DNA of 64,000 nucleotides from Lysinibacillus sp. FSL W8-0992 (GTDB lineage: Bacteria; Bacillota; Bacilli; Bacillales_A; Planococcaceae), in the NCBI RefSeq assembly GCF_038008685.1, contig NZ_JBBOZQ010000001.1, positions 3,844,001 through 3,908,000 of the forward strand, in the 5' to 3' direction. Under the pieces are notes generated by a model. It saw only the letters and a program-made list of their open reading frames with translations. It did no database searches and was not told the origin of the DNA. Positions 1 to 55,842 of the stretch are shown here, one piece after another. A program made the translations under genes and the position numbers. Numbering within the stretch: position 1 is the stretch's first letter; the number at the start of each line of letters is the position of its first letter.

Positions 1-1404
1 TAAATCTGCGAGTTCTTCTTTTGCATGTGCATCCAGCCCCTTGGTCGGCTCATCTAGTAACAGAATTTTAGGTTCTATTAATAAAAGTTTTGCGAGAGCT
101 AGTTTTTGCTGTTCACCCCCACTTAAATCATATGGATGTCGATTTAATAAATGAGTTAATCGAAACATTTGGATAGTTTCCTGAACTTTATCATCTGTAA
201 CCTTATGTAAATGCGCCATATCATCTAACTCTTGATGTACAGTTTTTTGTACAAATAGTGTTTTTGGATCTTGGGGTAGTAAAGTCAAATATTGGTGATA
301 CAATTGTTTATTACTATATTTTTTTAAAGCTTTATTTAATAACATTACTTTGCCATGATAAGGCTTTTGTAGTCCAGATAGAATAGAAAGAACTGTAGAT
401 TTTCCTGTTCCATTCCCACCTATTATAGTTAAAAATTCGCCTTCCCTCACTTGTAAATTAAAATGATGAACAATATCAAGATCTTTCTTTTCATAGCGAA
501 ATGCAACATCGTTTGCTTCTAAAACAATATCTGTTTTATTTTGGGATTTTGTCGGAATAGTAATCAACTGAGATAAATTGTATTGCTGGCTCTGAAGCCA
601 ACGTTGGCCTTCGCGAATAGTAAGTGGAATATGCCCTGTACCATTTAACAAGTGAAAAATTTTAGTAGCAGCTGGCAATGCCGTTATCATTGCGTGTTTC
701 TCTGGTAGAGAATTTAAAATTTCCTTAGGTGGACCGTCAAATAAAATGCTACCTTCATCCATAATAAATACTCGATCAGCAAGGGGTAACACTTCTTCAA
801 GACGATGCTCAATTAATATAATTGTAATACCTAGTTCTCTATTTAAACGATGCAGTGTCTGGATAAACTCCAATGCAGCTATTGGATCTAATTGCGATGT
901 TGGTTCATCTAACAGCAGTAGCTTCGGCTGCATAACCATAATGGATGCTAAATTTAAAAGTTGCTTTTGGCCACCAGAAAGCTCGGTCGTTTTATGATGA
1001 AACCATTTCTGAATACCAAAGAAGTTTGCCATTTCAGCTACTTTCCTGCGAATTGTTGATGTATCGACACCTAGGCTTTCAAGTCCAAAAGCAAGCTCAT
1101 GCCATACTTTATCAGTAACAATTTGGTTATCAGGATTTTGAAATACATAGCCTATATCCGCTGCAGCCACTTCAGCAGTTAACTGTTCTAAGTCACAATC
1201 TTGATAAAAAATATTACCTGTCATTGAACCATGCGGTCGCAATTCTCGTTTGAAATGGCGAAGCAAAGTACTTTTTCCACAGCCTGATTGTCCTATGAGC
1301 ACTATAAATTCACCTTGCTGAATATTTAAGTTAATATTTTTTAATATAGGATTGGCTTCATTAGGATAAGTAAAACTTACATTGTCGATTTTAACGATCG
1401 CCAC
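1..1404 (-). CDS. ECF transporter fused ATPase (EcfA-A'), C-terminus outside window
   Basis: This gene encodes the energising subunit of an energy-coupling-factor vitamin importer, with two ABC ATPase domains in one chain. The reading frame is open from a GTG at 1404 to the left window edge (468 codons). Visible motifs are a first Walker A (GQSGCGKST, residues 38-46), a first signature (LSGGQ) followed by LLLLDEPT, a second Walker A (GGNGTGKST) and a second LSGGEQ with LLLDEPTKGLD. The fused arrangement resembles YkoD-type ATPases. It overlaps the EcfT gene by 28 bases and is the last gene visible in the B12-riboswitch operon. The substrate-binding S subunit is not in the window and would be expected just beyond base 1. 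ECF ATPase identity is firm; cobalamin specificity is inferred from the riboswitch and neighbours. Confidence 0.93.
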   Translation of the reverse strand, partial: MAIVKIDNVSFTYPNEANPILKNINLNIQQGEFIVLIGQSGCGKSTLLRHFKRELRPHGSMTGNIFYQDCDLEQLTAEVAAADIGYVFQNPDNQIVTDKVWHELAFGLESLGVDTSTIRRKVAEMANFFGIQKWFHHKTTELSGGQKQLLNLASIMVMQPKLLLLDEPTSQLDPIAALEFIQTLHRLNRELGITIILIEHRLEEVLPLADRVFIMDEGSILFDGPPKEILNSLPEKHAMITALPAATKIFHLLNGTGHIPLTIREGQRWLQSQQYNLSQLITIPTKSQNKTDIVLEANDVAFRYEKKDLDIVHHFNLQVREGEFLTIIGGNGTGKSTVLSILSGLQKPYHGKVMLLNKALKKYSNKQLYHQYLTLLPQDPKTLFVQKTVHQELDDMAHLHKVTDDKVQETIQMFRLTHLLNRHPYDLSGGEQQKLALAKLLLIEPKILLLDEPTKGLDAHAKEELADL

Positions 1405-2258
1405 TTTAATGCCCCCCTTATTTCGATTGCTAATGGAATAGCTAGCAAAATGCAATAGCTAGTATAAAACAAGATACTAGTGATTTCCCATTTAACTATC
1501 CCGAAAGTGGGATAATAATCAAATGTTGTTACACCAATGAAACTTGCAACTAAATTACTAATAAAGAGCAATGTAATTATTGTCAAAACGTAGCCATCTC
1601 TACGTTCGAAAATAAATATAGAAAAAGCAGTCCTCTTAGTAACGCCATAGCCACGAGCTTTCATTGAATCGGCAGTATCAATGGCATTTTCTAACGCCCA
1701 AGTAATTAAAATAGATAAGATACGAATTATACATTTGATGCGATGCCATAGAGAGCCTGAAGTATAATCCATTCCGATTACTTTTTGCGCTAGTACAATT
1801 TGCTTTAATTGCCGCCTAAAACGGGGCACTAATCGCAATGAAATTGACAATGTTAGTGAAATTACTGGTGACACTTTTCCAAATAAATAAATAAATTTAT
1901 CTGACGTCATTAGGACATTATAACTGCTAAACCATAGCATAATAGAGACAATCATTGTGGAAATTGCGATACCATATGTAATCGCCTCTAACGTAAGTGG
2001 GTTGCCATTTATATAAAGTAATACAAGTTGACCATTATGGCTAATCAAAGGGTTAATAATTGCCATTATGAAAAATAGAGGTACATATATTTTCCAGTCT
2101 TTAAAAAAAGACCGCCTGCGTAAAGCAAAATTTAAGCTTATTGCAAAGAAAATTGTAATAGCTAAATAGACTGGATGCATAAAAAACATGGATAAGCCAA
2201 TAGTAGCGGCAAAAAAAGAGAAAAGAACAATAGGATGATATGTCTCAAATGCCTTCAT
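1377..2258 (-). CDS. ECF transporter transmembrane component (EcfT / CbiQ family)
   Basis: This is the integral membrane coupling subunit that links the ECF ATPases to a substrate-binding S protein. The 293-aa product has about five hydrophobic segments. Its cytoplasmic stretch around residues 145-205 contains the A-R-G motif (SMKARGYG) that in EcfT proteins contacts the ATPase. The ATG at 2258 overlaps the stop codon of the upstream lipoprotein gene (TAATG), and the 3' end overlaps the ATPase gene, so the three genes are translationally coupled. The neighbours suggest cobalamin as substrate. The family call is strong; the substrate is an inference. Confidence 0.9.
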   Translation of the reverse strand: MKAFETYHPIVLFSFFAATIGLSMFFMHPVYLAITIFFAISLNFALRRRSFFKDWKIYVPLFFIMAIINPLISHNGQLVLLYINGNPLTLEAITYGIAISTMIVSIMLWFSSYNVLMTSDKFIYLFGKVSPVISLTLSISLRLVPRFRRQLKQIVLAQKVIGMDYTSGSLWHRIKCIIRILSILITWALENAIDTADSMKARGYGVTKRTAFSIFIFERRDGYVLTIITLLFISNLVASFIGVTTFDYYPTFGIVKWEITSILFYTSYCILLAIPLAIEIRGALKWRSLKSTM

Positions 2259-3112
2259 TAGTTACCATCCCAATGATTTCCTAAGTCTCGCCCTAAATCA
2301 ACTGTATAGTGCCATTCAATTACATCGCCATCCTTTAATACGTACTGACTGCAGCCATAATTGGGATAAACACCGTTTACTTTATACATCCAACCACTTA
2401 ATTCCCCCGCACTAAATTCGTATAAATGATTAATTCCCTCTACATAGACACTATTATAAATATTTTCGTTTGCTCCTTGGTATTCCATCTGAATTTTATA
2501 CTCCTTTGTTGCACGCTGTAATACATCCCACACAGTATCCTTCTCTGAAAGAAGTTCGTATGTTGTTGGCTTCAAAATAATACCATTCTTAGGTACATAT
2601 TTCTCACTTTGGAGGTTCGAATCTAACTTATCCCAATGCTTTAGTAACGTATCAACGCGAATCGCAATGGTTACAGTGCGTTTTTGGGTAGCTGGCTGTT
2701 GCTGAACTTCATTTGGTGGCGTAACTGTATTTGTTTTTTCTTTATCGCCAGTTTTATTAGTAGCTTTTTGTTCAGTTTTTGTATTTGGAGCTTTTGTGAC
2801 TTCTTGCTTTTTCTCAGCTTCCTTTTTTGGTTGTTCCACTACTTCTTGGTTTTCTTGCTGTACTTCTTGCTGAGGTTTGTCCTGCTTCTCATTTTTGGAA
2901 TTCTCATCGATTCCAGACTTCATTTCAGCTTGTTTCTCTTCGTCAACTGAAGGAGTTTCTTCTGTTGCTTCATGTTGTTCAGTAGTAGATTTGGGCTCAA
3001 CGCTCCGTTCCTGCTCTTGCATTTGCTCAAATTTCTCTACCGTTTGAATATTACATGCTGTTAAAAAAATAGTGAGTACTAATAATAGTAATAAGGGTAA
3101 TTTTATTTTCAT
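2258..3112 (-). CDS. Lipoprotein with C-terminal DUF4430 (transcobalamin beta-domain-like) module
   Basis: The 284-aa product begins with a lipoprotein signal peptide with lipobox LTAC (Cys20), so it should be tethered to the outer face of the membrane. Residues about 30-150 are a Lys/Glu/Gln-rich low-complexity spacer. Residues about 165-284 form a DUF4430 domain, recognisable by SGWMYKVNG, the GD-x-x-EW-x-YT segment and the terminal DLGRDLG. DUF4430 is described as resembling the C-terminal domain of transcobalamin and intrinsic factor. The gene lies one base after the SLH toroid gene, with a GAGGAG ribosome site inside that gene's 3' end, and abuts ecfT. The likely role, inferred from context, is to receive cobalamin from the wall-anchored proteins and pass it to the ECF importer. 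Confidence 0.85.
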   Translation of the reverse strand: MKIKLPLLLLLVLTIFLTACNIQTVEKFEQMQEQERSVEPKSTTEQHEATEETPSVDEEKQAEMKSGIDENSKNEKQDKPQQEVQQENQEVVEQPKKEAEKKQEVTKAPNTKTEQKATNKTGDKEKTNTVTPPNEVQQQPATQKRTVTIAIRVDTLLKHWDKLDSNLQSEKYVPKNGIILKPTTYELLSEKDTVWDVLQRATKEYKIQMEYQGANENIYNSVYVEGINHLYEFSAGELSGWMYKVNGVYPNYGCSQYVLKDGDVIEWHYTVDLGRDLGNHWDGN

Positions 3113-3113
3113 A

Positions 3114-4652
3114 TTACTCCTCTACTACCTTTAAGAAATTGACATACATTTTAGACGCATGGGCGCGTGTTATAAAGTTTTTTGGATTATACGCACCATT
3201 GGAGCCTTGTGCAACTCCAAAATCATATAAAAATGTAATTGCTTGTTGCGATTCCTTTGATAACTTCGCAATATCATTTAAAGGGGCATTTACATTGGAT
3301 ACATACGGATTTCCTGTTTTATGTGTATATGCATTTGCTAGAATTACTGCTAATTCCTCACGAGTAATTGGTGAGGAAGGTAGAAATTTATTTGACGTAG
3401 TCGCTAATAAATTAGCCTCGTAAGCAGCAGCAATTTCTTGTTTTGTTTCAGTATTATACGAGTTTATATCCGTGAAAGGGGCATTTCCGGAACTTGTTAG
3501 ATGCAGAGCGCGAACTAAAATCGATACTGCCTGTACACGAGTTAAATTGTTATCTGGTCTGAATGTATTGTCTTCATAACCTTTTAATAAGCCCTTGTCT
3601 ACTGCAGCTTCAATATCAGTCTTCGCCCAATGCGATTGAATATCCTTAAAACTCACCTTAGTCGGAGGAGCTGTAGGTTGGCTTGGCTTGCCTGGTGTTG
3701 ACGTATTACTTGGCTTTTTATCAGATGTATCATATAGCTTTGTTTTGCTTAAAAGCAGACGGTTATATGCTGCCAATGTATAAGAGGCCTGCTCAGTTGC
3801 CATACCATTGGCTACTGATTCAGTTAATACATGTTTAAATCCACCATCTTGGGCATTGTAAAAAGTAAAAAAGCTTGTAAATAACTTATTAAAGCGTTGG
3901 TCTTTGTTCGGATCAATATTTAAGCTAGCAAGTGCTGTAATTACTTGGGCAACACTTTCTAAATTTGTAGTTCCCCAGCTTTGGTAACTTCCATTAGCTC
4001 CTTGCAAGTTTTTTAAAGTATCAAGTGCTTTATTAATAGAAACCTTAACATCTGATCTGTCTTTATAAGTGGAGAGCGCTTGAATAGCCATAGCTGTCAT
4101 ATCAGGATCTGCTTTCACACCAGATAAATCCCAACCGCCGTCAGGCAATTGCTTTGATAAAATATGCTGGATAAGTTTTTCTCGTGTAGTTGTTGCTGTT
4201 TTGGAAAGCTCAAAGCTCCATGTATCTAAAGCGATTAGTGCAAAAAAAGCCCCATTCGGACCTTGCCATACAACTTTATCAAAGTCGCTTAATTTTTCCA
4301 CTAAATTGTAGCCACCTACATTAGTAGGGTCTTTTCCAATGGCAGTGAGTGCAATAATTAAACGTGAGTACTCCGTATATTTACGGTTGTGTAATTCTCC
4401 TTTTACAGTTTTTACATGCTTCTCGACGTTTTCATAATATTTTTCAAAATAGCCTTTTGGAACATTGTATTCTCCCCTTGCAAGCGCAATAACAAACCAC
4501 TCATCACCAAAAGAAGGATTAGGTGCTTTGTTAACTAAAAACTGACCAGTTATTTTATAACTATCCATTGTTGATACTTGCTGTGCGGAGACTGGTGCCG
4601 CCATAGTAAGCAACAAAACAAGTACCATTATAAACTTAGATATTCTTTTCAT
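3114..4652 (-). CDS. SLH-anchored alpha/alpha-toroid (terpenoid-cyclase-fold) surface protein
   Basis: The 512-aa exported protein has a signal peptide (residues 1-24, ending PVSAQQ) and a helical toroid of the prenyltransferase/squalene-cyclase repeat type (about 30-310). Toroid repeats include QLPDGGWDLSG and DPDMTAMAIQAL. A Pro/Ser linker and three SLH domains (about 330-512) follow, which bind secondary cell-wall polymer. The toroid is highly similar to the one in the upstream 1,960-aa protein, with identical stretches such as RKYTEYSRLIIALTAIGKD, so the two are paralogues. The start at 4652 is chosen because GGAGG lies seven bases before it; the ATG at 4667 has none. Intrinsic factor and transcobalamin also use an alpha6/alpha6 toroid as their larger cobalamin-binding domain. 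Enzymatic cyclase activity is unlikely in an exported wall protein. Confidence 0.85.
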   Translation of the reverse strand: MKRISKFIMVLVLLLTMAAPVSAQQVSTMDSYKITGQFLVNKAPNPSFGDEWFVIALARGEYNVPKGYFEKYYENVEKHVKTVKGELHNRKYTEYSRLIIALTAIGKDPTNVGGYNLVEKLSDFDKVVWQGPNGAFFALIALDTWSFELSKTATTTREKLIQHILSKQLPDGGWDLSGVKADPDMTAMAIQALSTYKDRSDVKVSINKALDTLKNLQGANGSYQSWGTTNLESVAQVITALASLNIDPNKDQRFNKLFTSFFTFYNAQDGGFKHVLTESVANGMATEQASYTLAAYNRLLLSKTKLYDTSDKKPSNTSTPGKPSQPTAPPTKVSFKDIQSHWAKTDIEAAVDKGLLKGYEDNTFRPDNNLTRVQAVSILVRALHLTSSGNAPFTDINSYNTETKQEIAAAYEANLLATTSNKFLPSSPITREELAVILANAYTHKTGNPYVSNVNAPLNDIAKLSKESQQAITFLYDFGVAQGSNGAYNPKNFITRAHASKMYVNFLKVVEE

Positions 4653-4720
4653 TAGAGTAACCTCCATCGATAAAAGGGTACTAACCCAAATACAAAATGC
4701 ATTTGGGTTAGTGAAGAAAT

Positions 4721-7700
4721 TTACATAATGCCTGAGATATTTAACGTCCGTTTTAAAATTTTCGCTGTTTGTCCACGTGTAATTGGCGAGCTAGGGTCAA
4801 ATGAACCATCCAGCTTACCTGTCATAATATCAAGGCTATTTAATAGCTTAATATAAGGTAAGTATTCAGCGCTAATACGACTAGCATCATTGTAATTAAT
4901 CTCTCCTGCGGTTTTCACATCAGTATTTAAATATTCTAGAATGCGTGCCATAAATGCAGCTGCTTGCTGACGTGTTATTGGCGCATCAGGCTTAAATGTT
5001 GAAGCAGTTGATCCTTTTGTAATACCTGCCTCATATAGGGCTTGAATATCTGCCTCATACCATTTGCCTTTTGTATCATTAAATGGATTTTCACCTATAG
5101 TTTGTAAACCAAGGGCACGGCTAATTAATACTGCAAATTGGGCACGCGTAATTGGTTTATTTGGCTCAAACGTCTCTGGTGTAGTTCCTTGGATTACGTG
5201 ACGACTCACTAAAAATTCAATTTCTTCTTTGTTTGCTAACTGTGCAATGTCCTTAAATGTTACTGTATTTTCAGTTATAACGAATGTACCGCTTATTTTT
5301 GTGAACAAAACAATTTCACCATTCACTATTTTATGTGGAACAGGTTTATATTCCCCATCAACAAGCTGTAAAACGACTGTATTTGATTTGATTTCGCTAT
5401 CCAATAGTGTAACTTTCAAATATTCTTTTCCTAAAGTAATAGGCTTTGTTTTACCGTTTGTAGACTCAATACCGAATGAAACAGAGAATTTTTTATCTTT
5501 AGTATCCTTTGTTACTTCGACTGTTAACTCCTCGTTTTCAGCAAGTTTAATGCTATTAAAAATTGAAGTAGGGACTTCTATCTTGAAATTCTGTTTGCTT
5601 TGAATAACTATCTTTTGAATGTTCTTTTTAATATAATCTTGAATATTTTCAGATTTAATAATTGCTTTGTTACTACCATCTTCAATAGTAATTTCAGCTA
5701 ATGAACTATCTTTATTTGGTTCTTCAGACACTGCATCATCGTCTTTATTATCTTTTTCTGTTTCTTCAGTACATTGTTTATCATCGGCCTTACATTTTAC
5801 TTCTTCTTTACATTTATCTGTTTCTTTCTCTTTACATTCTTTATTTTCTTCACCTTCACCTTTACCTCCACTTTCGATACCATCAACATATCCACCGATA
5901 TCCTTACCTAAATCAAGTGTGTATAGCCATTCCACAGAATCCCCAGGTGATAATTTATAGAGTCCTGCAGAATAAGAAGGGAATTGACCATTTACACGAT
6001 ACATCCAACCACTTAAAGGACCGCGGTCGAATTCATAAAGGCCCGCAATACCATCGATATATGTGCCATATTGTGTTTCTCGATAGCTTAAATCGATACC
6101 ATTTTCAGTTGTCACACGTTTTAATGCATCGAATACTGTATCTCCGGTATTTAGTTGAACAGTAGTTGTTCTTAATGGAATCTCGGAAGAAGAAATTCTA
6201 ATTAAAAATGTTGCATAACCACTTGGGATACTTCCCCCTGGGTTAGATGGATTTCCACCTTCTCCCGGGTTTGAAGGGTTTCCTCCATCTCCTGGGTTAG
6301 ATGGGTTCCCACCTTCTCCTGGGTTAGATGGATTATTAGACTTCGTATCGGACGTATCATAAAGTGCTGTTTGCCCGTTTAGCAGACGATGATAGGCTGC
6401 TAATGTATAGCCAACCTGCTCGGTAGCCATTCCGTTTGCTTGCTTTTCGTTTAAATCGTGTTTAAAGCCACCGTCTTCTGGACTGTAATAAGTCATAATA
6501 TTAGCAATTACTTTATTAAAGCGAGGATCTTTATTCGCATCAATGCCTATGCTCGCAAGTGCAGTAACAACCTGAGCAGCGCTTTCAACATTTTCCATAC
6601 CCCATGATTTATAGCCACCATTCTCTAATTGCATAGCAGCCAACGTATCTAATGCATTATTAACAGCTATCTTAACTTTTGAATTGTTGTTATAGTATGG
6701 AGCTAGTGCTTGTATAGCCATAGCTGTCATATCTGGATCAGACTTTGTTCCTGATAAAGCCCAGCCGCCATCAGCTAATTGCTTGCTTAAAATGTGCTCC
6801 ATCAGCATTTCAGGAGTTGTTGTAGCTGTTTTTGGTAGCTCAAAGTTCCATGTGTTAAGAGCAATTAACCCAAAATACGCACCATTTACACCTTGCCAAA
6901 TTACTTGGTCAAAATCAGATAGTTTTTCAACTAAGTTATAACCACCGACATTTGTTGGATCTTTACCAATTGCAGTAAGGGCAATAATTAAACGTGAGTA
7001 TTCTGTATATTTCCGTTTATCGAGTACGCCATTTTTTGCAACAACATGGTCAACGACATTTTTATAATACGTTTCGTAATATTCTTTCGGTACTTCATAG
7101 CCTCCGCGAGCTAATGAAATTATCCACCACTCATTATCGAATTTAGGGTTAGGTAGTTTATCTACCATGTATTGACCAACAGTTTTATAAGCCTTCAAAG
7201 TTGTTGTATCAGCATTAGTTTTTGTTCCAACTTTTTTCGCTTCATTAAATATCGTTGTGGCCTGATTTAGTGCTAAAACTTTCGCATCAATAATATCTTG
7301 TTCCGCTGTATTATCTGCTATTAATTGTTGGGCAGATAAAATTATATTTGTATAGGCATCTTGTACAGCTTGAGTAACCCAAAAATCAGCAGGGTCTATA
7401 TTTTTTCCATCAGTACTTATTTTTACAGAACCCTTGTTTTGTTCTGCTTTCTCAATTGCACTTTGTAATACTGATTTATCAATGACTACTTTTTCATCTG
7501 AAATAATCGAAATTTCTGGGAAGATGCTGTAGTAGCCTTCTCGAGCTGATGCATTAAGGTTAGGACTCGCTCCAGTTATTGGATTAATATTGTGGTGTTC
7601 ACCTATTGGACTTCCAAAAAAGCTCAGACGAATATGCCCATCTCGTAACTTGTATTCACCCTTATGTTCTTGTGGAATTGTAAATGTAACACTGTTTGCC

Positions 7701-10603
7701 TGCGTTGCCATATTGTATTGTCTTGCATCGCCCGAAACAAGAGTATTTTCAGGACCAGCGAAAAATCTCAGCTGACCTTGGAAGTTATAAATACCAGAAA
7801 GTTTATTCGCAGGGAAAGACAAGCCTTTTAAAGTAACTTTAACTTTATCTCCAGGTACTATTTTTTCATTTGCTGCTGTTAAGTTTTCAATTGTTACATC
7901 AAGTGGACGTGCTGTCATCACGTGATACTCAGCTTTTCCATCTTTTTCAACCTTAACTATATTACGTCCTTCAGTTAATAAAACTGTGAAAGAGCCATTT
8001 CCACTAGATTGAACACTTTCTGTTGAAAATTCACCATTTCCATAGGATGCTGTTCCTATACTATGATTAATTTCCGGACGCAAAACGCTTACTGAGCTTC
8101 CAGAAGTCGGAGTAAAAGTATAATATGCTCCTTGTTCGCCTTGAACATAGTAAACACTATCAATATCAGCATCAAAAACACCATTTTGTAAGTTTAGAAG
8201 GTCCCCACCTTTTTTACCTTCATTAATTTTTTGATTACGTTCTTTGTTACTTTCTATACCTGTAGAAATACCTGTTTCACCTTGACCAACAGTCACAACA
8301 AAGAGACCGACATTTTCTGGCCAAATAGCACTAAATGCATCATTCGCATCACTAATGTATCCGGAACCATTAACCTTCAATGCGTCATACGTCACTTTTA
8401 CAACAGCTGTACCATTTTTCAATGCTTTGACTGTCGAATAACTTCCTGGCTTACCAGGATCAATTTGAATTACATCATCGCCTGTTATGATTTCATAATG
8501 GAAATCAGGCTCAAAGAAATAGTTGTTAATTCCTTCTATTAATGCTTGCCAGCTTCGTAATGTTAGTAAATTGAAGCTTTCTCCTTGGTTTAACTTCAAA
8601 TGATTTTGCTCATTAATATTTAAATAAATATTACCTTCAAGATATGTTCCTTTATTTAAAATTGCTGTTGGCGATTGAATTGAGAGCTGTTGTTTTGTAA
8701 TTGCCAATGTTGCATTTTGAGCATTTGCTTTAAATGTACCTACATTTGTAAGTTTTCCTGCTTGGCTAACTCGGTAGTTATAATCACCATTGTTTGTTAA
8801 CTTGAAAGAAAATGTTTTTGTACCATCCGGGTTAATCGTAGCTACCCCTTCAGGCAGGACTTCTTCAAATGCAATAAAGTGTTTAATTTTTTTTCCTACA
8901 AATAATTCAGCATCTTCAGGGACTGTAAACTTAATATCCCCAGAAAACGGAATAGCTGCACTAATTGTTTGAGCTGTGGCCGAAAGTGTTACTGTAGTGC
9001 TATTACTAACTGGAACATATTGTGTATGCTTTGCATCTGGCTCAAACGTATAGTAGATTTTTTCCCCTACTAGAGCTAGTACTGGAGTCTGTCCTTGTGT
9101 TGTTACTTTACCTAGTTTTAATGACGTATCGTTCGGTATTTCTTGCCCAACTTTTACAGTGTAATCGCTATTAACATTCCAACTTGTATTACTAGCTTTA
9201 AAATTAAGCTGGCGGAATTGAAATTCTTGATTTGATTCTGCTTTTACTGTTAGCTGACCACCGCCAACACTGTTATGATTGCTATCAAATCCTTCGTAGC
9301 GATAACTTCCTACTGGTATAGTTGCTGTATAAACATTGTATGTCCCTTCAACACCAGAGCCTATGTTTATTTCTTGCTCATTCGTATCATAAAGCTTTAA
9401 CATCACAGCTTTATGTGCCACAGTAATTTTCACTGTGCTAGTAATATCCGTTTGTAAACCAGGTTTTTTACTAAATGCATTTGTGGCTTGATTTAGTGCT
9501 AAAACTTTTGCATCTATTTCTTCTTGACTGGCATTTTCATCTGCGATTAGTTCCTGTGCGTCTATAATTTCATTTGTATATGCATCTATTTCAGCTTGAG
9601 TAACCCAGTAATCAGTAGGAGCTACATCTTTTCCATCTAAACTTACTTTCACAGAAGCTTTTGTTTGTTCAGCTTGTTGAACCGCTGTTTGCAAAGCTGT
9701 TTTATCAGCTTTAACGATTTCTTCCCCTTCTCCATTTAAAGCAGCATTTAAATGGGTAAGTGCTGCATCCACATTTGTTTGACTACTCTCCATATTTTTA
9801 AGCTGCACGTAGGCGGCGTCATAAGAAGACTTTACTTGTTCATTTGCTAAAATTTCGTTTTTAGTTGGCGAGCTATTAATTTCGGCAATTTTCGCTGTTA
9901 ACTCGTCTTTATTCGCTGGAGTAATTAAACTACTTCCCTCTAAGCCACCACCTAAATCTGCTCCATACCCCCATACTGTAAACTGCCATCTAATGATATC
10001 ACCATCTTCTGGGAACCATTCAGAAGCACCTCGAGGAATAAAGTTATTATTTACAGCTACCATCCAGCCCGACATAGTTGTATAGTCCATTTGATTTAAC
10101 CAGTCGGATTCTATTCTTCCATCAACTGGACCAGATTCATCAAGAATGTATTTTGGGACGCTCACTTCTCCAGGATCAGGATCAAAGACCCCTGATAAGT
10201 AAAAGCTTTCTTCTACAGACCCTGTAATGTCATAGTTGCCTTCTCCTAACAGGTTAACTATAACCTTAGCTATATTATCCCCTTCATAAAAAGGAACACG
10301 AACAGGTTCCTTTATGTATCCCTGCCCAAGTGTAAACTTCTCTACGGAAACCGTCACATAACCTTTAGGTTCAGTATTATTAAATATCGTCGCACTATCA
10401 TTACTGGTAATAGGAGATAGTTCGCTTTCCGTTTGCTCGGTCATTTCTTTCTCTAATGATTCTTCATTAGTTTGAATACTAGAATCTGTTTCTAACTCAC
10501 TAGCATCATTTTGTTGTGTCTCAGCGAATGCAACGGGTGATAATAACGAAAATGATAAGATAAAGACAATCGCTATATTCAACCATTTTTTATAAAAGTC
10601 CAT
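4721..10603 (-). CDS. Giant SLH surface protein: DUF4430 - FIVAR - beta region - toroid - DUF4430 - 3x SLH
   Basis: The 1,960-aa protein has a signal peptide cleaved near AFA-ET (residue 27). A first DUF4430 domain lies at about 79-218 (SGWMVAVN, DGDIIRWQFT). Three FIVAR-like helical modules lie at about 230-287, 297-378 and 1042-1122, and a long beta-rich region spans about 380-1040. An alpha/alpha toroid follows at 1137-1415, then four NPSNPGEGG-type linker repeats and a second DUF4430 at about 1463-1570 (SGWMYRVNG, DLGKDIGG). A charged segment carrying four cysteines, a beta module and three SLH domains (1783-1960) complete the chain. Toroid, Gly/Pro linker and DUF4430 reproduce the domain order of intrinsic factor. 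The ATG at 10603 is preceded by GGGGGG; an upstream in-frame ATG at 10642 lacks a ribosome site. It is the first gene after the cobalamin riboswitch. Cobalamin binding is inferred, not shown. Confidence 0.87.
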   Translation of the reverse strand: MDFYKKWLNIAIVFILSFSLLSPVAFAETQQNDASELETDSSIQTNEESLEKEMTEQTESELSPITSNDSATIFNNTEPKGYVTVSVEKFTLGQGYIKEPVRVPFYEGDNIAKVIVNLLGEGNYDITGSVEESFYLSGVFDPDPGEVSVPKYILDESGPVDGRIESDWLNQMDYTTMSGWMVAVNNNFIPRGASEWFPEDGDIIRWQFTVWGYGADLGGGLEGSSLITPANKDELTAKIAEINSSPTKNEILANEQVKSSYDAAYVQLKNMESSQTNVDAALTHLNAALNGEGEEIVKADKTALQTAVQQAEQTKASVKVSLDGKDVAPTDYWVTQAEIDAYTNEIIDAQELIADENASQEEIDAKVLALNQATNAFSKKPGLQTDITSTVKITVAHKAVMLKLYDTNEQEINIGSGVEGTYNVYTATIPVGSYRYEGFDSNHNSVGGGQLTVKAESNQEFQFRQLNFKASNTSWNVNSDYTVKVGQEIPNDTSLKLGKVTTQGQTPVLALVGEKIYYTFEPDAKHTQYVPVSNSTTVTLSATAQTISAAIPFSGDIKFTVPEDAELFVGKKIKHFIAFEEVLPEGVATINPDGTKTFSFKLTNNGDYNYRVSQAGKLTNVGTFKANAQNATLAITKQQLSIQSPTAILNKGTYLEGNIYLNINEQNHLKLNQGESFNLLTLRSWQALIEGINNYFFEPDFHYEIITGDDVIQIDPGKPGSYSTVKALKNGTAVVKVTYDALKVNGSGYISDANDAFSAIWPENVGLFVVTVGQGETGISTGIESNKERNQKINEGKKGGDLLNLQNGVFDADIDSVYYVQGEQGAYYTFTPTSGSSVSVLRPEINHSIGTASYGNGEFSTESVQSSGNGSFTVLLTEGRNIVKVEKDGKAEYHVMTARPLDVTIENLTAANEKIVPGDKVKVTLKGLSFPANKLSGIYNFQGQLRFFAGPENTLVSGDARQYNMATQANSVTFTIPQEHKGEYKLRDGHIRLSFFGSPIGEHHNINPITGASPNLNASAREGYYSIFPEISIISDEKVVIDKSVLQSAIEKAEQNKGSVKISTDGKNIDPADFWVTQAVQDAYTNIILSAQQLIADNTAEQDIIDAKVLALNQATTIFNEAKKVGTKTNADTTTLKAYKTVGQYMVDKLPNPKFDNEWWIISLARGGYEVPKEYYETYYKNVVDHVVAKNGVLDKRKYTEYSRLIIALTAIGKDPTNVGGYNLVEKLSDFDQVIWQGVNGAYFGLIALNTWNFELPKTATTTPEMLMEHILSKQLADGGWALSGTKSDPDMTAMAIQALAPYYNNNSKVKIAVNNALDTLAAMQLENGGYKSWGMENVESAAQVVTALASIGIDANKDPRFNKVIANIMTYYSPEDGGFKHDLNEKQANGMATEQVGYTLAAYHRLLNGQTALYDTSDTKSNNPSNPGEGGNPSNPGDGGNPSNPGEGGNPSNPGGSIPSGYATFLIRISSSEIPLRTTTVQLNTGDTVFDALKRVTTENGIDLSYRETQYGTYIDGIAGLYEFDRGPLSGWMYRVNGQFPSYSAGLYKLSPGDSVEWLYTLDLGKDIGGYVDGIESGGKGEGEENKECKEKETDKCKEEVKCKADDKQCTEETEKDNKDDDAVSEEPNKDSSLAEITIEDGSNKAIIKSENIQDYIKKNIQKIVIQSKQNFKIEVPTSIFNSIKLAENEELTVEVTKDTKDKKFSVSFGIESTNGKTKPITLGKEYLKVTLLDSEIKSNTVVLQLVDGEYKPVPHKIVNGEIVLFTKISGTFVITENTVTFKDIAQLANKEEIEFLVSRHVIQGTTPETFEPNKPITRAQFAVLISRALGLQTIGENPFNDTKGKWYEADIQALYEAGITKGSTASTFKPDAPITRQQAAAFMARILEYLNTDVKTAGEINYNDASRISAEYLPYIKLLNSLDIMTGKLDGSFDPSSPITRGQTAKILKRTLNISGIM

Positions 10604-10660
10604 TTCTTTCCCCCCAATTTTTATAGATGAATGCGCTTGCAATAACTAGAAAATAAAAAA

Positions 10661-10689
10661 GATGCTTCTCTAATAAAAGAGAGAGCATC
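10661..10689 (-). terminator. Riboswitch expression-platform terminator
   Basis: On the minus strand GATGCTCTCT pairs with AGAGAAGCATC around a short loop, followed directly by a run of T (10650-10660). It lies between the cobalamin aptamer and the giant surface-protein start, so it should be the intrinsic terminator that forms when the vitamin is bound. Confidence 0.8.
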
Positions 10690-10784
10690 CAAGGAAAACA
10701 GAAAAAGGCTCAAAATACTATTTGCCTGTCCATCTATTTGCCGTAAATTCTCCTAGCTTCCGAAGAGATTTAATACGATGAAAT

Positions 10785-10952
10785 AAAGGCAGGTCTCCTG
10801 GCTTGTGTACCCTAATCAGAACCTTCCCATCTACTTGAGGCATTTTTCCTCGTTTGACAGTGGTGTTTTCTGGGGTCATCTACACATACAGTTGCGGAAA
10901 CAGCTTCGGATTTGCACCGAATTCCCTATTAAGCTCTTAAAAGAGCACCTTT
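10785..10952 (-). promoter_or_regulatory. Cobalamin (adenosylcobalamin) riboswitch
   Basis: The minus strand carries the conserved cobalamin aptamer landmarks in order: AAAGGTGC, AATAGGGAA, CGGTGCAAATCCG, CCGCAACTGT, CCACTGTC, GGGAAGG and AAGCCAGGAGACCTGCC (the B12 box). It precedes the five-gene surface-protein/ECF operon and, with the terminator at 10661-10689, should switch that operon off when cobalamin is plentiful. This is the main evidence that the operon handles vitamin B12. Confidence 0.96.
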
Positions 10953-11146
10953 ATTCTGCATTCGCTATTCACTTAATGCTAAGTTTAGCATAGTTTCCAT
11001 TTTTTCAAAATAGTTAAAAAAAACAATCATTAATAATTATCTAAAAATAATGAAGTTGAATCTGCTTATATTTGCATTGATATCGCATATTATGTTCTTC
11101 TTATTTGCAATTCTATATTTAAGCACAAAAGTATTATCAATAAAAA

Positions 11147-12415: not shown

Positions 12416-12584
12416 CTTCTTTTATTCATATTATTATCAAGCGTAGTCTAATGCATTAGTGGCTAATGAAATGTGAAATTTCGTCTCAATATTTTTCATG
12501 TTTTCCTTAGTTTTTCATCCCTTTTCAAAAGTTAAGACAACATATTTTATAGTATGTAGACTATTTTGAAAAGAGGTGACCAAG

Positions 12585-12848
12585 GTGAATAGGAATAGAA
12601 GATTAAGATTTTGTTATCCTGGCTATAAATATTGCGGACCTGGATGTTCAGGACCTGGTTCACCAACAAATGCTGTTGACTCTTGTTGTAAGAAGCATGA
12701 TGCTTGTTATTCAAAATATGGTAGAACAAAAAATTGCGATGAATTATTTCAGCAATGTTTATTAGCACATATGAATACCAATAGCAAAATGGGCAGAGAT
12801 GCTAGACTGTTCTTCAAAGTTTTTGATTTGCGTAATAATTTCTTTTAA
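12585..12848 (+). CDS. Small phospholipase A2-like protein
   Basis: The 87-aa Cys-rich basic protein contains YCGPGCSGPG followed by VDSCCKKHDACYSKYG. This matches the Ca-binding glycine loop and the catalytic D-x-C-C-x-x-H-D-x-C-Y motif of phospholipase A2, including the His-Asp pair. No signal peptide is visible. The GTG at 12585 is chosen because AGAGGTG lies a proper distance upstream; an in-frame GTG at 12576 overlaps that site. It stands alone between terminators. Homologues in bacilli and parvovirus VP1 share the core, and a lipase or a structural spore/phage role are both possible. The fold call is good; activity is unknown. Confidence 0.75.
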   Translation: MNRNRRLRFCYPGYKYCGPGCSGPGSPTNAVDSCCKKHDACYSKYGRTKNCDELFQQCLLAHMNTNSKMGRDARLFFKVFDLRNNFF

Positions 12849-25802: not shown

Positions 25803-25927
25803 AGAAAAGGCATGATTAAATAACGCCATTACTAGCTATTTTTTGTGCATACAGTGTAATTAGTAGACACACTGAAAAAAACGCTCGCACATAGCTTAAT
25901 TCGTAACAACGAATGACGATCGTACCT

Positions 25928-26119
25928 TCATCTTCTCCCATCCAGACTATACTGTCGGCCTTGGAATCGCACCAAGTCAGCCATGCAAAAAAATCTTTGC
26001 ACAGGTCGCGGGCTGAAGAGCCATTTAGTAAATCATGCGAGCTAATGTAGTTTAGTACAACACTAGCGATTTACAACTCTATTACCGCCGGTCGGGATTT
26101 TCACCCTGCCCCGAAGATG
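25928..26119 (-). promoter_or_regulatory. FMN riboswitch (RFN element)
   Basis: Minus strand shows the RFN landmarks in order: ATCTTCGGGGCAGGGTGAAA, CCCGACCGGCGGTAAT, AGCCCGCGA, GATTCCAAGGCCGACAGT, ATAGTCTGGATGGGAGAAGA. One arm is enlarged by about 60 bases, as many natural RFNs are. It represses ribU when FMN is high. Confidence 0.97.
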
Positions 26120-26282
26120 AATCAATATTATTTTATAAATTAACTATAATGTTTTATTACATAAAAGTAAATACTTCTGCTTAAAAAATTCCGATTAAAT
26201 TTGTATGTTTTAATGAATGCTTCTATAAAAGGGCCATTTGATTTTCGAGTTCAGGTAATTCGAATTCAGCCATGAACGACGA

Positions 26283-55400: not shown

Positions 55401-55700
55401 TGCTAACAGCTCCTTTTCTTACAATACTAACTATTATAACCGGTTTTCTATGAAATGTGTAAATTTTTAAAATAGAATGATAATTTAGCTGTATCCTACA
55501 CAAATTTTCAAAATAATAACAGTCTAAATCTTTCCCCTTTTGAAAAAATATTTTCGCACTTTTTATTACTGTTATTCTGATACCCTAATTAATAAAGGTT
55601 TTATCAAGTAAAAAATTTTTTCTTCTCATTTGTCAAAAAAATTTTCTGTATTTACTAACTTTTCTTGAAATAGTAGTATCATAGCAGTTTCAACTTTCTA

Positions 55701-55842
55701 GATCGCTGAAACCAATGGATGCGGGGGAACCAAATTTTTTGGATGAACATTCAATCCAAGGGGTGAATCCTTGTTAAGGTAGGGCTACTCAAAGGCCCGA
55801 ATCCGTCAGCTAACCTCGTAAGCGTTAAATGAGAAGGAAGAT
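55701..55842 (+). promoter_or_regulatory. c-di-AMP riboswitch (ydaO-yuaA type)
   Basis: Conserved landmarks in order: ATCGCTGAAACC, GCGGGGGAACCAA, GGGGTGAATCC, TAAGGTAGGGCTA, GGCCCGAATCCGTCAGC, TAACCTCGTAAGCGT, GAGAAGGAAGA. These match the ydaO element nearly base for base. It lies 233 bases before the MFS start. A clean terminator between them was not seen; only a weak CTTGTA/TACAAG pair at about 55847-55877. Confidence 0.95.

Follow-up and report, generated by a model that had tools for sequence, protein, structure and literature searches.

How might a bacterium capture a scarce and large vitamin across its thick wall? The question is raised by an operon at the left edge of the stretch analysed here, 64,000 nucleotides of Lysinibacillus sp. 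FSL W8-0992 (the window), in which a cobalamin riboswitch precedes genes for two exported proteins with an alpha/alpha toroid and S-layer homology (SLH) domains, a DUF4430 lipoprotein, and components of an energy-coupling factor (ECF) transporter. An earlier note on this DNA had proposed that these genes form an uptake system for vitamin B12 (cobalamin). We consider it likely that they are indeed a cobalamin (corrinoid) import operon in which extracellular B12-binding proteins accompany a dedicated ECF-CbrT transporter, as suggested by a CbrT homologue just beyond the window, by the frequency of cobalamin riboswitches before such genes, and by a two-domain profile alignment with the animal B12 carriers.

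The operon and its transporter

The operon is cut by the window's left edge and reaches its S component in the surrounding genome; the genes from that of the 512-amino-acid (aa) protein through to that of the S component each overlap the next or are spaced from it by a single base. Its features, in window coordinates unless stated otherwise, are:

10771..10967, minus strand: aptamer of a cobalamin riboswitch, matching RF00174 from end to end (1-189) at 105.1 bits (gathering score 31.5)
10650..10690, minus strand: terminator-like hairpin (10690-10660) and T run, between aptamer and start codon
4721..10603, minus strand: 1,960-aa exported SLH protein, in the order DUF4430, long middle region, toroid, Gly/Pro linker, DUF4430, SLH
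9977..10093, minus strand: first DUF4430 match (profile 33-71, E 1.4e-5), in the N-terminal part of the 1,960-aa protein
6329..7195, minus strand: alpha/alpha toroid of the 1,960-aa protein, about residues 1137-1425
5918..6145, minus strand: second DUF4430 of the 1,960-aa protein, residues 1487-1562 (profile 1-71 of 72)
4739..5281, minus strand: SLH domains of the 1,960-aa protein, three stretches, about residues 1775-1955, best 1840-1882
3114..4652, minus strand: 512-aa exported toroid-SLH protein, the "alpha half" of a recurring gene pair
2258..3112, minus strand: 284-aa DUF4430 lipoprotein, the "beta half" of that pair
1377..2258, minus strand: EcfT transmembrane protein of the CbiQ family, 26.6 bits (cut-off 25)
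1..1410, minus strand: first part of a fused EcfA-EcfA' ATPase, start codon unsettled, gene end beyond the window
C1:3843773-3843078 (L004:7773-7078), outside the window: CbrT-like S component, the next gene after the ATPase

Profile matches bear out what had been read from the letters, namely SLH-bearing toroid proteins, a DUF4430 lipoprotein and ECF parts behind a cobalamin riboswitch, the RF00174 element lying upstream on the same strand at the head of the operon. PF14478 (DUF4430) matches scored 91.0 and 69.5 bits against a curated cut-off of 23.8, and the first DUF4430 of the 1,960-aa protein is an addition to the earlier note, which had named the second only. The toroid matches of this large protein remained under the Pfam cut-off; the 512-aa protein matched Prenyltrans at 32.5 bits, over the cut-off of 26.5. 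The outer limits of the SLH region were estimated from an NF033190 match (residues 1777-1952), and the 284-aa protein carries an N-terminal lipobox, LTAC, judged by eye. The hairpin between aptamer and start codon has a predicted energy of -14.8 kcal/mol (z -4.25), equalled by none of 200 shuffles; its stem is bulged and it was not listed by a consensus terminator scan, and together with the T run it is likely the expression platform.

The S component points most directly to the cargo. Compared with the PDB, it had a sole match below E 0.2, the CbrT chain 6fnp_A (E 1.9e-10, query residues 58-228). The double ATPase, its gene completed from the genome, matched ECF_ATPase_1 at 390 bits in two stretches, so that a CbrT homologue, EcfT and two EcfA ATPases, the parts of ECF-CbrT, are present in the operon. 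CbrT was reportedly predicted by Rodionov and colleagues in 2009. It is now a proven S component for cobalamin and cobinamide, both of which are transported by ECF-CbrT (PMC5997447). The Lactobacillus delbrueckii transporter (6FNP) is likewise made of CbrT, EcfT, EcfA and EcfA', but its ECF module is described as serving more than one S component (PMC5997447). The operon of the window has a complete module of its own.

Recurrence of the gene set and of its riboswitch

To what extent do these genes keep company elsewhere? Among 200 genomes sampled from the order and searched with the toroid-DUF4430 stretch, 42 matched, 40 of them strongly, and all genomes listed belong to the window's family. 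A search with CbrT only, which is freer of selection than a toroid+DUF query, matched 44 of the 200 genomes, 41 strongly; 40 of these 41 strong homologues lie 2.5-5.1 kilobases (kb) downstream of a toroid/DUF4430 cluster. In the genome with the 41st (G113), CbrT and EcfAA' are present and EcfT is cut by a contig end, with no toroid match elsewhere in the genome, and the remaining three matches comprise a weak one without a cluster (G179, E 1.4e-15) and two with stop codons. CbrT and the toroid/DUF4430 proteins thus co-occur almost without exception in this sample.

A looser search of named genomes supplied 79 loci among the matches listed (at least 567 relatives). Five of these loci are from the window's family and the others mostly from Paenibacillus and Clostridia, including many metagenome bins and two labelled Alistipes. 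In 76 of the 79, a toroid gene is followed by a separate DUF4430 gene. The toroid-DUF4430 unit to which the earlier note had drawn attention therefore recurs as a pair of genes and not as the fused giant protein. Since a toroid+DUF query was used to pick the loci, this pairing partly reflects selection, which does not apply to the ECF genes. The toroid protein lacks a DUF4430 domain in 56 of the 76 pairs and carries its own in 20. Furthermore, in the 74 listed loci outside the family, wherever there was room, EcfT was found in 62 of 67, EcfAA' in 54 of 57 and CbrT in 43 of 46 (missing despite room in L050, L055 and L075). In 35 of the 79 loci CbrT and EcfAA' are even fused into a single open reading frame (ORF), 830-1027 aa long; CbrT is the C-terminal part in L046, L048, L049, L088, L108 and L109, and an S component fused in this manner could hardly be exchanged.

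The position of such pairs under cobalamin riboswitches, proposed at the outset as a check, was often found. In the 40 genomes of the listed matches, 58 of 62 toroid/DUF4430 clusters are preceded by a cobalamin riboswitch on their own strand, within 4 kb in 57 cases and at 10.7 kb in the remaining one. With 3-14 cobalamin riboswitches in each of the 42 matching genomes, such proximity would be expected by chance in well under 1% of cases (our own estimate, for genomes of 2.8-5.3 Mb). The other four clusters had no riboswitch within 12 kb, and a rescan at E up to 0.1 found none either; two of them (G048:C1:381694 and G152:C1:1844631) have a same-strand riboswitch about 13-14 kb upstream, with which they perhaps, though this is unproven, form one long operon, and another (G101:C35) has an upstream contig of just ~5 kb. 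Of the 79 loci, 38, all outside the window's family, were scanned directly; a cobalamin riboswitch on the same strand precedes the genes in 19 of them within the stretch scanned, and the only element of another riboswitch class in these 38 is a single thiamine pyrophosphate (TPP) element. In L079 the cobalamin riboswitch is on the other strand only; this element (L079:6191-6444, minus strand) stands before a toroid-DUF4430 gene that diverges from the adjoining operon.

Likeness to the animal B12 carriers

Animal B12 carriers are soluble proteins, secreted for receptor uptake. They were represented by four sequences of intrinsic factor (IF), haptocorrin (HC) and transcobalamins (TC), the IF query agreeing with 2pmv_A with one difference. 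The known structures (2PMV, 4KKI, 2BB5/2BB6) share with the bacterial proteins the order toroid, linker, beta domain and a C-terminal match to DUF4430; unlike the recurring gene pair, the animal carriers are single chains, with an alpha domain of family PF01122. When profiles of 93 bacterial and the four animal sequences were compared by hhalign, the bacterial toroid, linker and DUF4430 aligned to IF/HC/TC in one run and in the same order, with a probability of 95.7% (96.7% in a rerun) and a score of 80.5; 60 column shuffles reached no more than 20.9, and the reversed animal profile scored 17.2. Taken singly, DUF4430 against beta scored 49.1 (shuffles at most 16.6; probability 95.3%) and toroid against alpha 41.4 (shuffles at most 19.9; 71.5%), while the crossed domain pairs scored 12.1 and 13.4. 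The C-termini of IF (E 0.0029, 18.4 bits) and TC (E 1.2e-4, 22.9 bits) matched DUF4430 in turn, both under the cut-off of 23.8. On sequence grounds, the kinship of DUF4430 to the animal beta domain is firm. The toroid is less securely aligned than DUF4430, and its greater nearness to IF alpha than to other toroids is not supported. Hence, of the IF/TC plan claimed for the large protein, the domain order and the similarity over two domains stand, and the evidence speaks against a close alpha match.

The toroids have features of their own. Throughout the 43 sequences, Q101, D155, T157, E204, Q208 and H246 are invariant polar residues, and a DxTxM motif is present in 43 of 43; the joint alignment matches it to the VDTxAM motif of the animal sequences (4/4), the toroid-only alignment to another place. 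DxDD is the catalytic motif of class II terpene cyclases, and since it is absent from 42 of the 43 toroids (and found in one), these are unlikely to be enzymes of that type. A further pattern, W-x7,9-P-x2,4-G-x3-Y, occurs in 34 of the 43 bacterial and all four animal sequences; it was drawn up after viewing the alignment and is descriptive only.

A number of results weigh against the proposed capture of B12 by carrier-like proteins. The profile of the 43 toroids taken alone (A3) reached a probability of 29%, 37% or 43% against the animal set, and in the 29% run its alignment was in another register than the joint one. PF01122 was missed by the toroid, with one of 43 sequences at E 0.17 and none of 12 genomes over the cut-off. 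Profile searches of the PDB with the toroid led to squalene-hopene cyclases and alpha-2-macroglobulin-type proteins and to no IF or TC, and the search with the DUF4430 profile returned no TC or IF chain; likewise, sequence searches of the PDB with the lipoprotein and with the toroid+DUF profile gave no direct IF or TC match. Half of the distant loci scanned (19 of 38) lack a same-strand upstream riboswitch within the stretch scanned. Finally, the genome of the window possesses a B12-synthesis gene, CbiC, and riboswitch-controlled importer genes of the periplasmic-binding-protein kind; the toroid/CbrT system therefore need not be the sole source of B12.

A possible working of the system and competing explanations

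How could these parts act together? When B12 is scarce, the riboswitch would let transcription pass through the terminator. B12 would then be captured by the toroid protein bound to the wall or by the fused giant protein, a membrane-bound DUF4430 protein beside the transporter would close around it, and release to CbrT would be followed by import driven by EcfT and EcfAA'. The toroid and DUF4430 proteins most likely bind B12 between them, and the 1,960-aa fused protein, which has an alpha-linker-beta unit of its own, may serve as an accessory binder attached to the wall. The system would resemble BtuCDF in its high-affinity capture of B12 outside the membrane and ATP-driven import (PMC5997447), although the transporter is of an unrelated type.

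The toroid/DUF4430 pair looks built for two places, so that its halves would have to meet around the ligand. SLH domains were found in nine of ten toroid-bearing proteins, which were hand-picked and all have long additional regions. Among 54 toroid-only ORFs, 14 end in a C-terminal tail of at most 150 aa, and such proteins would need another anchor or none. On the DUF4430 side, a hydrophobic segment precedes the domain in 75 of 83 short proteins, and 5 of 83 have neither segment nor lipobox. A lipobox common to all DUF4430 proteins was considered and rejected, a motif-like sequence being present in 21 of 83 (4.4 expected from shuffles). One might thus picture a split transcobalamin, with an alpha half in the wall and a beta half at the membrane encoded by adjacent genes, B12 as the glue, and docking on ECF-CbrT. 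There is a precedent in the animal protein, as TC-alpha and TC-beta, when expressed apart, elute together in the presence of cyanocobalamin only, and the same B12-dependent assembly is cited for intrinsic factor (PMC5599065). We put forward this split arrangement tentatively, as something that may well prove wrong, because the toroid-only register is unstable and the toroid protein has its own DUF4430 in 20 of the 76 pairs.

Among the alternatives to cobalamin uptake by both proteins, the one that survives best concerns the ligand. In a likely B12 producer, the operon could salvage analogues, its ligand being another corrinoid or precursor such as cobinamide or other cobamides. Behind the genome's other ten cobalamin riboswitches, where one ORF each was tested, we found for transport three periplasmic binding proteins, a FecCD permease and CbiM, and otherwise a corrin methylase, a B12-independent methionine synthase, the large chain of a ribonucleotide reductase and a DBI_PRT phosphoribosyltransferase. 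CbiC, the riboswitch-controlled methylase and the other importer genes suit such salvage, as does the uptake of cobinamide by CbrT and its acceptance by TC-beta (PMC5997447, PMC5599065). Riboswitch and CbrT homology, however, fit cobalamin itself, and although the present evidence does not separate the corrinoids, we think an alternative ligand unlikely. B12-binding domains that score over the cut-off are also found in four of the genome's proteins. One of the ten riboswitches (L114, C1:3008172-3009387) heads a 270-aa ORF without a Pfam match at E 0.001.

Somewhat more doubtful is an explanation in which the DUF4430 protein alone would be the B12-binding accessory, and the toroid-SLH protein would have no contact with B12, acting in wall scaffolding or in placing the transporter. 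A lactobacillus protein table already names an "additional lipoprotein component of putative cobalamin ECF transporter", for which DUF4430 is not stated there, and separately lists a DUF4430 protein beside rtpR (PMC9963975). TC-beta binds cobalamin by itself (PMC5599065), DUF4430 is the better animal match (95.3%, compared with 71.5% for toroid-alpha and 29-43% for the toroid-only profile), and the toroid sequence is nearer to terpene cyclases. Nevertheless, a mere scaffold would have to account for the invariant polar residues and the universal DxTxM of the toroid, aligned with VDTxAM in the joint alignment only, and for the pairing of both genes in 76 of 79 loci, though these were toroid+DUF-selected. 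Cobalt import by CbiQ/CbiO-like parts is highly improbable: EcfT does match Pfam CbiQ and cobalt importers can be cobalamin-riboswitch-controlled, as is this genome's CbiM gene, but the S component is CbrT-like rather than CbiM-like, and the genome has that CbiM gene separately under its own riboswitch.

The preferred reading, cobalamin import with external binding proteins, has a forerunner. Burroughs et al. 2007 (PMC1796856) described exported bacterial fusions of toroid and SLBB (DUF4430) in CbiO/CbiQ-like operons, some of them with a second SLBB protein, predicted B12 scavenging, and proposed transfer to animals as the source of transcobalamin. B12 scavenging by such proteins was thus already predicted in 2007, and its genomic context is now firmer. 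The text of that paper contains none of the words riboswitch, S-layer and SLH (no match each), and that of the ECF-CbrT paper (PMC5997447) contains neither lipoprotein nor "extracellular binding". In contrast to the 2007 statement that carriers usually lack B12-synthesis enzymes (PMC1796856), CbiC is present here in 13 of 40 carriers, the window's genome included. The gene set as a marker of auxotrophs was rejected for this sample, with CbiC encoded by 13 of the 40 carriers and by 53 of the 160 remaining genomes (odds ratio 0.97, p 1.0; the weak toroid matches G007 and G127 counted as non-carriers, and related genomes not independent). Within open-licence PMC, outside which most subscription papers lie, we did not find the CbrT-toroid partnership, a riboswitch survey, the split reading or carriers with B12-synthesis genes in print, and recognised from titles and abstracts no experimental study of bacterial toroid/DUF4430 proteins.

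If the system works as proposed, it would show how a scarce, large vitamin is captured across a thick bacterial wall, and would furnish external receptors or binding proteins to an ECF importer, a transporter type whose S component is held to be the binding protein. It would further represent a bacterial counterpart, perhaps an ancestor, of the human B12 carriers, open to test with purified proteins. With CbrT so constant a companion, and with a gene set that recurs in its split layout, the 2007 prediction can be tested directly.

Three further observations concern the surroundings. About 1.2 kb past the operon end, short repeats open in several frames (e.g. GFYRRFAPGYR) occupy L004:5370-5890. 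Elsewhere in the window, a 90-aa ORF (12576-12848, plus strand) that contains CCKKHDACY matches the phospholipase A2-like PF08398 (E 1.8e-9), and two riboswitches of other classes are present, a flavin mononucleotide (FMN) riboswitch at 25926-26122 (minus strand) and a cyclic di-adenosine monophosphate (c-di-AMP) riboswitch at 55694-55840 (plus strand).

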